Positions 1 through 3,366 of a stretch of DNA of 64,000 nucleotides are shown here, one piece after another (position 1 is the stretch's first letter; every line of letters starts with the position of its first letter). Location of the stretch: NCBI GenBank assembly GCA_031119555.1, contig JAVHXQ010000004.1:33168-97167 (forward strand), given 5' to 3'. Origin of the DNA: Candidatus Dactylopiibacterium sp. (GTDB lineage: Bacteria; Pseudomonadota; Gammaproteobacteria; Burkholderiales; Rhodocyclaceae). Position numbers and translations under genes: made by a program. The notes under the pieces are model-generated. The model saw only the letters and a program-made list of their open reading frames with translations, was not told the origin of the DNA and ran no database searches.

Positions 1-1053
1 GTAGAAGCCGCCGATGCCGCCGGCCATGCCGACCAGACCGGTCATGACGCCGATTTCACGCCGGAAGCGCTGCGGCACGAGCTGGAACACCGCGCCGTTG
101 CCCATGCCGAAGGCCAGCATGGCGCCCGTGAAGCCGGCGGCCGCGAGCCACACCGTGGGCAGGCCCAGGCTTACGATGAAGAGGAAGGCGGCGGCGAGCA
201 CGTACATCAGGCTCAGCATGCGGATGCCGCCCAGGCGGTCGGCGAGGTTGCCGCCGATCGGGCGCACGAGGCTGCCCGCGAACACGCAGCCTGCCGTGAA
301 GAAGGCGGCGCTGCGCGCATCGAGGCCGTATTCGGCGTTGAAGTAGATCGTCAGCGAAGAGGCGAGCCCCGAGAAGCCGCCGAAGGTCACCGCGTAGAAG
401 AACATGAACCACCATGCGTCCCCGTCGCGCAGGAGGCCTGCGTAGTCGGCGAAGGATTTCGGCGGCGGGCAGTCGGGCGCGTCGCGGGCGATCAGCAGAT
501 AGATCGCGAACACCACGGCCAGCGGGATCAGCACGATGCCGAACACGTTGTTCCAGCCGCCGTAGGCGATGGCGAGGCTGGGGGCGAAGAGCGCGGCGAG
601 CACGGTGCCCGAGTTGCCCGCGCCGGCGATGCCCATCGCGGTGCCCTGGTGTTCGGGCGGATACCAGCGCGAGGCCAGCGGCAGCGCGACCGCGAAGGAG
701 GCGCCGGCCACGCCGAGGAAGGCGGCGAGGATCATGACCTGGGTATAGGTGTGGATGCCGAAGTGCCAGGCCGTGAAGAGGGCGCCGATCACGATGATCT
801 GGCCGACGATGCCGGCCGCGCGCGGCCGGATCTGATCGACCAGGACGCCCATGACGATGCGCAGGAAAGCGCCGGAGAGCAGCGGCGTGGCCACCATGAG
901 CCCCTTCTGGGCGGGCGTGAGCTGGAGGTCGGCGGCGATCTGCACGCCCAGCGGGCCGAGCAGGACCCACACCATGAAGGCGAGGTCGAAATACAGGAAC
1001 GCGGCCAGCAGCGTGGGCCAGTGTCCGGCTTTGAGGAAGGATTGCTTGTCCAT
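1..1053 (-). CDS. narK: Nitrate/nitrite MFS transporter (NarK/NasA-like), 3' end truncated by window edge
   Basis: Translating from ATG at 1053 (minus) gives MDKQSFLKAGHWPTLLAAFLYFDLAFMVWVLLGPLGVQIAADLQLTPAQKGLMVATPLLSGAFLR..., typical of NarK-type MFS. The ORF runs off the left edge, so it is missing from the ORF track. It lies next to nasST. Confidence 0.8.
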   Translation of the reverse strand, partial: MDKQSFLKAGHWPTLLAAFLYFDLAFMVWVLLGPLGVQIAADLQLTPAQKGLMVATPLLSGAFLRIVMGVLVDQIRPRAAGIVGQIIVIGALFTAWHFGIHTYTQVMILAAFLGVAGASFAVALPLASRWYPPEHQGTAMGIAGAGNSGTVLAALFAPSLAIAYGGWNNVFGIVLIPLAVVFAIYLLIARDAPDCPPPKSFADYAGLLRDGDAWWFMFFYAVTFGGFSGLASSLTIYFNAEYGLDARSAAFFTAGCVFAGSLVRPIGGNLADRLGGIRMLSLMYVLAAAFLFIVSLGLPTVWLAAAGFTGAMLAFGMGNGAVFQLVPQRFRREIGVMTGLVGMAGGIGGFY

Positions 1054-1206
1054 GGTGGCTCCGTCAGGGTTGTGCGCTCGGCAAACCGTGAAGCGGCGAG
1101 GACGGAAGCATCGACCGGGGCGGCGACGAGCTTCACGGCCTTGCATGAGCGGCCGGGGCCGCCTGCATGACGCGTTTGCGCGAAGATCGCCTTTGATCCG
1201 GTCGGG

Positions 1207-1224
1207 GCCGACGACGCTGTCGGC
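1207..1224 (-). promoter_or_regulatory. Candidate ANTAR-target RNA hairpin (hexaloop) in the narK leader
   Basis: Minus-strand RNA GCCGAC-AGCGUC-GUCGGC: 6-bp perfect stem and 6-nt loop with A1 and G4, as in described ANTAR targets. It sits between a sigma54-like promoter and narK. Confidence 0.5.
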
Positions 1225-1265
1225 TCCGTGGGGCTGCCTTGTGGGGCGGCTCCCGCAGAGCTTCT

Positions 1266-1282
1266 AGCAGAAGCCGTGCCAG
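1266..1282 (-). promoter_or_regulatory. Candidate sigma54 (-24/-12) promoter for the narK operon
   Basis: Minus strand CTGGCACGGCTTCTGCT versus consensus YTGGCACGrNNNTTGCW: one mismatch, with GG/GC spacing correct. Confidence 0.55.
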
Positions 1283-1402
1283 GTGTCTTGAATGGCTGAA
1301 AGCCTTATGGAAAGGGCTTTTGCGGCGAAGGCGCGGTTGCCGCGCGATGCGTGCGCCGCACCGCGAATGTGCGGCGCGGGCCGATCTGGTGCGGGCGCGG
1401 CG

Positions 1403-2575
1403 TCAGCGCGCGCGGGGGTCCGCGTGCGGGGGCAGGTAGCGGTCGGGGCGGGAACCATCCCAGACTTCGCCGTCCATGAGCACGCTGCTGCGCAGGGGGC
1501 GCGCCGGCAGGCTCACGCCCAGCGCGCGGGCGGCCTCGGCATACAGATCGGTGCGGTGGATGCTGCGTGCGATCTGCTCATGCTCGACGCGTCCGAGCAT
1601 GCCCCAGCGCTGATGCTGGGCGAGGAACCACATGCCGTCGGAGAGCCAGGGGAAGCTGGCCTCGCCGTCGGCGAAGAACTGCATCGGATGCGCATCCTGC
1701 CACTGGCGGCCGAGGCCGTCTTCGTACTCGCCCAGCATGCGTCCCTGGATCGTGGCGGGCGCGATATCCAGGTGATGCGGCGCGGCGATCAGCCCGGCGG
1801 CCCGCACGCGGTTGGCCGGGCTGGCGTCGAGCCAGCGCGCCGCCTCCAGGACGGCGCAGATCAGGGCGCGCGCGGTGGCGGGGTACTCGCGCGTGAAGCG
1901 GGCGGTCGTGGCGAGCACCTTCTCGGGGTGGTCGGGCCAGATCTGCTGGGACGTGGCCACCGTGAAGCCGACGCCTTCGAGGATCGCATGCTGGTTCCAC
2001 GGCTCGCCCGCGCAGAAGCCGTCCATGTTGCCGCGACGCAGGTTGATGCTCATGTCGGGCGGCGGCACGACGATGCGGTGGATGTCGTGCATCGGATCAA
2101 TGCCATGCGCCGCGAGCCAGTAGTACAGCCACATGGCGTGCGTGCCGGTGGGAAAGGTCTGTGCGAAGGTCGCGCGCTGCGTGGCCTGCGCGAGGTGGCG
2201 GGCAAGGCTCTCACCGTCGCGCACGCCGTGCGCGAGCAGCGTGCGCGACAGCGTGATGGCCTGCCCGTTGCGCGACAGCGCGATGAGGATGTTCATGGCT
2301 TCCTGCACGCCGCCCAGGCCGGTGTGGATGCCATAGACCTGCCCGTACAGCGCCTGCGAGGCGTGCAGCTCGCCCGCGACCAGGCGGTCGCGCACCGCGG
2401 CCCACGAGGCCTGGCGCTCGGGCACGATGCGCAGCCCGTAGCGGCGGTCGAAGCCGAGTTCCGCCGCCATGATGAGCGACGCGCAGTCGGTGAGCGGAAT
2501 GTAGCCGACGCGGACTTCCTCCAGCTCGGGGCGGTCGGAACCTTCGACGCGGGCGGACGGGGGCTGGGTACTCAT
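1403..2575 (-). CDS. nasS: NasS-like nitrate sensor (CmpA/NrtA-family periplasmic-binding-like protein without obvious signal peptide)
   Basis: 390-aa ORF (VRVGYIPLTDCASLIMAAELGFDRRYGLRIV..., NLRRGNMDGFCAGEPWNQ). Adjacent to an ANTAR regulator. Confidence 0.8.
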   Translation of the reverse strand: MSTQPPSARVEGSDRPELEEVRVGYIPLTDCASLIMAAELGFDRRYGLRIVPERQASWAAVRDRLVAGELHASQALYGQVYGIHTGLGGVQEAMNILIALSRNGQAITLSRTLLAHGVRDGESLARHLAQATQRATFAQTFPTGTHAMWLYYWLAAHGIDPMHDIHRIVVPPPDMSINLRRGNMDGFCAGEPWNQHAILEGVGFTVATSQQIWPDHPEKVLATTARFTREYPATARALICAVLEAARWLDASPANRVRAAGLIAAPHHLDIAPATIQGRMLGEYEDGLGRQWQDAHPMQFFADGEASFPWLSDGMWFLAQHQRWGMLGRVEHEQIARSIHRTDLYAEAARALGVSLPARPLRSSVLMDGEVWDGSRPDRYLPPHADPRAR

Positions 2576-2699
2576 GCGGTGTTCTTTCGCGACCGCCCGG
2601 GGGCGGAGGGTGACAGGGCGTCATCATGACGGCTGCGCGCGCTCCGTGACGGCGGAGCCGCCGGGAGGGCGTCCGCGCGGGTCCGATGTGATGCTTTTG

Positions 2700-3287
2700 T
2701 CATGAATTTTCCCCCAGCAGCAGATCGGCCGCCGCGATGAGCTGCTCCGCCACGTCGTGGATGCGACGGCCGCGCTCCATCGCCATCTTGCGCAGGGCGT
2801 GATAGGCCTCGTCCTCGCTCATGTGGCGGGATTTCATGAGCAGACCCTTGGCACGCTCGACGAGGACGCGCTCGGAGAGCTTGCGCTGCGCTTCGTCGCG
2901 CTCGCGACGCACGGTCTGGAAAGCCTCGAAGCTCGCGGTGGCGGTCTTCAGCAGCGGCGCGAGGCGTTCCGGGCTCAGGCCGTCGACCACGTACGAGGAC
3001 ACGCCCGCGCGCAGGGCGCGGCGGATCACGTCGTCGTCGTCGTCGCCCGCGAACATCAGGACGGGGCGCGGCAGGTTGCGGTCGAGCGCGGCGAGGTTCT
3101 CCAGCGTGTCGCGGCTGGGCGAATCGGTGTGGATCAGCAGCACGTCGGGCTGCAGCTGCTGCACGCGTTCGTGCAGGGCCAGCGCGTCGGGCAGCACCGC
3201 GGCCACCATGTGACCGGCGCGCGTGAGGGCTTCACAGATCTCCAGCGCGCGTTCGCGGATTTCGTCGATGACCAGAACCTTGAGCAT
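2700..3287 (-). CDS. nasT: NasT-like ANTAR-domain response regulator/antiterminator
   Basis: MLKVLVIDEIRERALEICEAL... receiver-like N-terminus and ERAKGLLMKSRHMSEDEAYHALRKMAMERGRRIHDVAEQLI ANTAR signature. Start taken at 3287 rather than the longer ORF start. Confidence 0.85.
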   Translation of the reverse strand: MLKVLVIDEIRERALEICEALTRAGHMVAAVLPDALALHERVQQLQPDVLLIHTDSPSRDTLENLAALDRNLPRPVLMFAGDDDDDVIRRALRAGVSSYVVDGLSPERLAPLLKTATASFEAFQTVRRERDEAQRKLSERVLVERAKGLLMKSRHMSEDEAYHALRKMAMERGRRIHDVAEQLIAAADLLLGENS

Positions 3288-3366
3288 GGGGGCGGAAGGT
3301 GGGGCAGGCGTGGAAAGGAAAAGCCGGCGCCAAGAGTATGCCGTCCGCGGCGTTCTTGTCATGGTC

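Follow-up and report, generated by a model that had tools for sequence, protein, structure and literature searches.

A putative NasT-responsive leader with paired hexaloop hairpins on a sigma54-type narK transcript in Candidatus Dactylopiibacterium sp.

Organization of the nasT-nasS-narK locus

The stretch of DNA analysed here, referred to as the window, comprises 64,000 nucleotides of a Candidatus Dactylopiibacterium sp. contig. On its minus strand nasT and a nasS-like gene are followed by a leader region, which sits between nasS and the nitrate/nitrite transporter gene narK, so that nasT-nasS lies directly upstream, as the first-pass annotation had placed it (Table 1). The narK gene extends past the left edge of the window, and its truncated product (351 amino acids) scores 267.5 bits against TIGR00886 (cut-off: 311.7) and also matches MFS_1, while the gene is found in full length in locus L061. 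Beyond the window the cluster continues, as judged from the sequences, with genes for a phosphatase/kinase-like protein, nirB, nirD and a nasA-like gene. The phosphatase/kinase-like protein (MPLTVSLGHASLTGPRARNEDF...) is kept between narK and nirB in L061 (minus-strand ORF; 1564-3250 of the reverse complement) and occupies the same position in L062.

A domain search of the whole genome identified NasT, encoded two genes upstream of narK, as the sole ANTAR-domain protein. The listed nasT reading frame is probably 25 codons too long (3287-3362, minus strand), with the true start probably at an internal methionine at 3287, and the NasT protein of a relative begins with MLKILVIDEI, which matches this position. 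An ntrC gene is located elsewhere in the genome, its product scoring above the family cut-off. Two RpoN (sigma54) proteins, also above their family cut-off, are encoded at G000:C37:7941-9416 and G000:C98:10571-12001.

Table 1. Features of the narK leader and the adjacent genes (positions in the window)
Feature	Position	Strand	Remarks
narK, nitrate/nitrite MFS transporter	1..1053	-	Start codon at 1053; extends past the left edge of the window
Putative Shine-Dalgarno sequence of narK, GACGGAG	1059..1065	-	Read from the sequence
Competing helix, 3′ strand, CGTGAAGctcGTCGCC	1122..1137	-	Not followed by a U-tract
Competing helix, 5′ strand, GGCGATCTTCGCG	1179..1191	-	Overlaps the P2 loop and 3′ arm
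P2 hexaloop hairpin, GGATC-AAAGGC-GATCT	1184..1199	-	Four Watson-Crick pairs and one G-U; A1/G4; 7 nt downstream of P1
P1 hexaloop hairpin, GCCGAC-AGCGTC-GTCGGC	1207..1224	-	Perfect 6-bp stem; A1/G4
sigma54 promoter element, TGGCACGGCTTCTGCT	1266..1281	-	One mismatch to TGGCAC-N5-TTGC; predicted transcript start near 1255
NtrC-type palindrome, GCAC-ATTCGCG-GTGC	1358..1372	-	Exact match; 91 nt upstream of the sigma54 element
nasS-like nitrate sensor, NMT1_2 family	1403..2575	-	PF13379, E 1.6e-90
nasT, receiver and ANTAR domains	2700..3362	-	PF03861, E 5.5e-20; PF00072

A sigma54-type promoter with an NtrC-type site

Direct reading of the sequence agrees with the first-pass annotation that a sigma54 element with a single mismatch precedes narK. 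No other site in the 64 kb comes within one mismatch of the consensus, but as approximately two such matches are expected by chance, the match on its own is not significant. The same mismatch is found in related leaders, including L079 (TGGCACGACTTCTGCT) and L104 (TGGCACGAGTTCTGCT). The palindrome upstream of the element conforms to GCAC-N7-GTGC, the core of an NtrC site, and 43 of 83 non-redundant related leaders contain an exact copy no more than 180 nt upstream of their sigma54 element, where shuffled sequences predict 0.4. Read-through from nasTS could furthermore contribute to narK expression.

Two consecutive A1/G4 hexaloop hairpins

ANTAR-target RNAs are dual A1/G4 hexaloop antiterminators (Ramesh et al. 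2012, PMC3369931). The narK leader similarly contains two short consecutive hairpins with stems of at least 3 bp (P1: 6 bp; P2: 5 bp, including the G-U pair), a short linker of 7 nt and six-base loops with A at the first and G at the fourth position in both P1 (AGCGTC) and P2 (AAAGGC). Only the first of these, with its perfect stem, had been recognized in the first-pass annotation, which reported no unambiguous second hexaloop; P2 supplies it. Nearly all relatives have AA at the first two positions of the P1 loop, and the predicted fold loses 7.7 kcal/mol when both hairpins are formed. In shuffled sequences, A1/G4 hexaloop pairs with 5 bp or more per stem and a gap no longer than 15 nt arise 0.55 times per 64 kb and never with an upstream sigma54 match. 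Across the genome, the pattern sigma54-N{62,92}-GATCNRNGNNGATC is confined to two sites, upstream of narK and of nirB, and the reversed control is found in 0 of 349 genomes.

Related leaders were gathered through RF03032 matches in 300 genomes of the order, through nasS relatives and through the nirB and narK starts of 121 genomes of the family. A stem-free scan, anchored only on the sigma54 element and a loop-like hexamer, yielded 57 non-redundant cases, in which P1 stem positions 2 to 7 are paired in 65-88% of cases, compared to 39-51% with shuffled partners, with five to six pair types at each position. An alignment comprised 34 leaders from other genomes, with the window left out. These leaders were chosen for having stems, and as such the controls in which the alignment was slid are of importance. 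Two-sided changes are observed at nine of the ten pairs, amounting to 70 such cells compared to 5-17 in the slid versions, while 94% of the cells are paired (shuffled: 73%; slid: 25-56%). A lack of hairpin covariation among relatives, which the first-pass annotation had named as grounds for abandoning its proposal, was thus not observed, and both stems covary strongly.

With a covariance model built from the 34 leaders, the P1-P2 pair scores 23.0 bits and outranks all other matches, both in the window (E 0.0011) and across the 3.3-Mb genome (E 0.055), where the next match scores 16.4 bits. Both E-values are modest owing to the shortness of the motif. The evidence for P1 and P2 is therefore the model rank taken together with their position, promoter and neighbouring genes.

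Relationship to the RF03032 narK RNA

The consensus of the Rfam family RF03032 ('narK RNA') consists of GGCAC-n-UUGCU, a stem with a six-base loop and CGAC-AAAGAC-GUCG, the second hexaloop not being drawn as a stem. Both hairpins are present in at least 25 of 30 RF03032 loci and a U-tract terminator overlapping P2 in at least 21 of 30, both counts being lower bounds from an automatic test that missed some. On account of these counts, RF03032 appears to represent a sigma54 promoter followed by two ANTAR hexaloops. No mention of RF03032, 'narK RNA' or 'narK motif' was found in the literature searched, although a link between RF03032 and ANTAR proteins may have been drawn elsewhere.

The window itself scores 18.7 bits against RF03032, far below the gathering cut-off of 43.2, and the model aligns P1 of the window to its own second hairpin, a misregistration caused by approximately 25 extra nucleotides preceding P1. 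RF03032 was therefore rejected as an annotation of the window. The stem that Rfam aligns at approximately 1250-1232 was also rejected as P1, since its loop, CCACAA, lacks A1 and G4.

Terminator-bearing and terminator-less leaders

The related leaders could be divided into two classes. Class A, found at nrtA-type genes and some nirB and narK genes, combines the two hairpins with a U-tract terminator, the 5′ strand of which overlaps P2; this is the textbook ANTAR arrangement. Class B comprises narK and nirB of this genome and nirB in approximately eight genera of the family; these leaders have a longer spacer and a P2 stem of GATC...GATC or near this sequence, and lack a U-tract. By its promoter, P2 and missing terminator, the narK leader of the window is assigned to class B on sequence grounds. 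Neither a terminator scan nor direct reading revealed a U-tract terminator in this leader, in keeping with the first-pass annotation, and the intrinsic terminator that overlaps P2 in ANTAR antiterminators is thus absent here. What is predicted instead is a helix of 13 bp with a 3-nt bulge (-19.2 kcal/mol), which forms part of the minimum-energy fold, resembles a terminator stem without its U-tract and, according to the folding model, is mutually exclusive with P2. As 3.6% of shuffled sequences match its strength, this helix exceeds chance expectation only modestly.

In class B nirB leaders, the 3′ half of P2 is complementary to the ribosome-binding region of the same leader, with sequences that differ by lineage (CTCTGT:ACAGAG; TCCCT:AGGGA and CGCGACA:TGTTGCG; ATCCC:GGGAT and ACGAACGC:GCGTTTCGT). 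The corresponding pairing in nirB of this genome is ACGACGATC:GATCGTCGT. When the P2 3′ halves and ribosome-binding regions were swapped between leaders with composition kept, the leaders' own combinations were favored both among 11 nirB representatives (p = 0.004) and among 15 representatives including narK (p = 0.0002). The predicted accessibility of the ribosome-binding site rises on formation of P1 and P2 in 18 of 29 nirB leaders, although the increase in the mean is modest (0.40 to 0.49). Since the competitor of P2 pairs with the ribosome-binding region, these observations suggest that NasT would act as a translational anti-sequestor at class B nirB.

A further, apparently terminator-less subclass of nirB and narK leaders, with the P2 hairpin CATGGC-AACGAC-GTCATG and mixed ribosome-binding-site pairing, was observed in L111, L195, L224, L225 and L238. 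Three consecutive A1/G4 hexaloop hairpins, rather than two, are located downstream of sigma54 elements in L010, L025, L107, L118, L121, L137, L141 and L143. In L010 the three stems are 12, 8 and 4 bp in length and every loop is AACGGC. Such leaders possibly carry more than one NasT binding unit.

Proposed regulation of narK

The best explanation of the locus as a whole, to which we assign a probability of roughly 0.8, is a NasT-responsive leader on an NtrC/sigma54-driven narK transcript, with an off-state imposed by the competing helix. The promoter, the NtrC-type site, the two covarying hairpins, the lack of a terminator and the predicted exclusivity of the two folds can all be read from the DNA. 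When nitrogen is limiting, NtrC occupying a site near 1365 would activate RNA polymerase-sigma54 at 1281-1266, giving a transcript that starts near 1255 and carries the P1 and P2 hexaloops as nascent RNA. We infer that nitrate would then cause NasS to release NasT, which would bind and stabilize both hairpins, and that this would be read out at narK. When NasT is not available, the helix between 1191-1179 and 1137-1122 would capture the 3′ half of P2 and expression would stay low.

The first-pass annotation had proposed that nitrogen limitation and nitrate jointly control narK, the latter through antitermination. Joint control is upheld by the NtrC-type palindrome, the paired and covarying hexaloops, the adjacent nasT-nasS genes, NasT being the only ANTAR protein, and the presence of ntrC and rpoN in the genome, and control of narK by NtrC/sigma54 together with NasT is well supported at the sequence level. 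The antitermination step is unsupported for this leader, as it lacks a U-tract terminator. For the same reason, the off-state at narK would not be a classical intrinsic terminator; a Rho-dependent or translational mechanism would be most likely, with an unusual terminator as a further candidate.

If Rho were responsible, the untranslated leader would be terminated in its C-rich 3′ part unless NasT binding or the folded leader protected it. The stretch from the competing helix to the narK start codon is long, untranslated and C-rich (32 C, 20 G and 9 A in 74 nt), but C/G ratios of 1.2-1.5 are ordinary in this GC-rich genome, and we regard Rho-dependent attenuation as a tentative and rather doubtful proposal. 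Classical antitermination is unlikely. It would require P2 to block an intrinsic terminator that the scan missed owing to the GC-rich genome and the absent U-tract, and while the class A relatives have such a terminator over P2 and the window likewise has a strong helix overlapping P2, no U-run follows this helix, and a terminator is also missing from the sister nirB leader and its relatives, where the pairing partner is the ribosome-binding region.

Equally improbable is that the translational anti-sequestration proposed for nirB also operates at narK of the window. The swap test on class B leaders speaks in its favor, as does the narK leader of Uliginosibacterium aquaticum, in which CUCUG:CAGAG lies at the ribosome-binding site and predicted accessibility rises from 0.30 to 0.49 when P1 and P2 form. 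The narK leader of the window fails the swap test (own: -12.3 kcal/mol; mean swapped: -13.4 kcal/mol), its predicted accessibility stays at 0.51 regardless of P1 and P2, and an anti-ribosome-binding-site pairing is not supported here; the 3′ half of P2 is predicted to pair mid-leader instead. Finally, a decayed leader, with the hairpins as remnants and narK expressed together with nasTS, would account for the weakness of P2, the atypical loop of P1, the diverged spacer and the missing terminator, but is very unlikely given that this leader is the genome's top covariance-model match and that the narK leaders of the window and U. aquaticum, which otherwise differ, share the P2 core GGATCAAnGGCGATCT.

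Comparison with known systems and significance

ANTAR targets upstream of nitrate transporters, Burkholderia matches included, were predicted in 2012 (PMC3369931). As in those RNAs, P2 of the narK leader overlaps a competing structure and the site lies upstream of a nitrate transporter; unlike in them, the U-tract terminator is missing, the P2 stem is of the GATC type and the competitor in the sister nirB leader is the ribosome-binding region. The dissociation of NasS and NasT on nitrate and NasT-dependent antitermination have been established elsewhere (PMC3795266, PMC6759348, PMC5424462). The adjacent nasT-nasS genes, a hairpin leader on a nitrate-assimilation gene and the involvement of NtrC are shared with Paracoccus (PMC5424462, PMC3795266) and Bradyrhizobium (PMC6759348). 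In those organisms antitermination is the stated mechanism, whereas the leader in the window lacks a terminator and is directly preceded by a sigma54 promoter with an NtrC-type site. Actinobacterial ANTAR RNAs contain the ribosome-binding site within their hairpins, and ANTAR binding represses translation (PMC8164766). Class B nirB leaders would resemble these in being linked to translation rather than termination, but the beta-proteobacterial nirB P2 sits 60-90 nt upstream of the ribosome-binding site, and ANTAR binding would therefore activate. Within the literature searched, terminator-less leaders in which a helix at the ribosome-binding site competes with P2 form a subclass that is new as far as we can tell; given the precedents of PMC3369931 and PMC8164766, the narK leader is in most other respects of an already known kind.

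We see an even chance that in Rhodocyclaceae-type bacteria NasT governs translation, not termination, of nirB and possibly narK, with bound P2 preventing a helix that hides the ribosome-binding site. If so, an ANTAR protein would serve as a translational activator in a genus that also uses ordinary antitermination, at nrtA, and this would accord with interpreting the Rfam family RF03032 as a sigma54 promoter and an ANTAR target. The candidate RNA family RF03032 thereby gains a testable protein partner in NasT, and its first part is suggested to be promoter DNA rather than RNA. One nitrate regulator faces terminator-bearing and terminator-less leaders in related genomes, and these two leader types would allow a test of whether a single RNA-binding protein acts through transcription at one gene and through translation at another. 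In relatives of denitrifiers, both nitrate assimilation and nitrite reduction would fall under such control.
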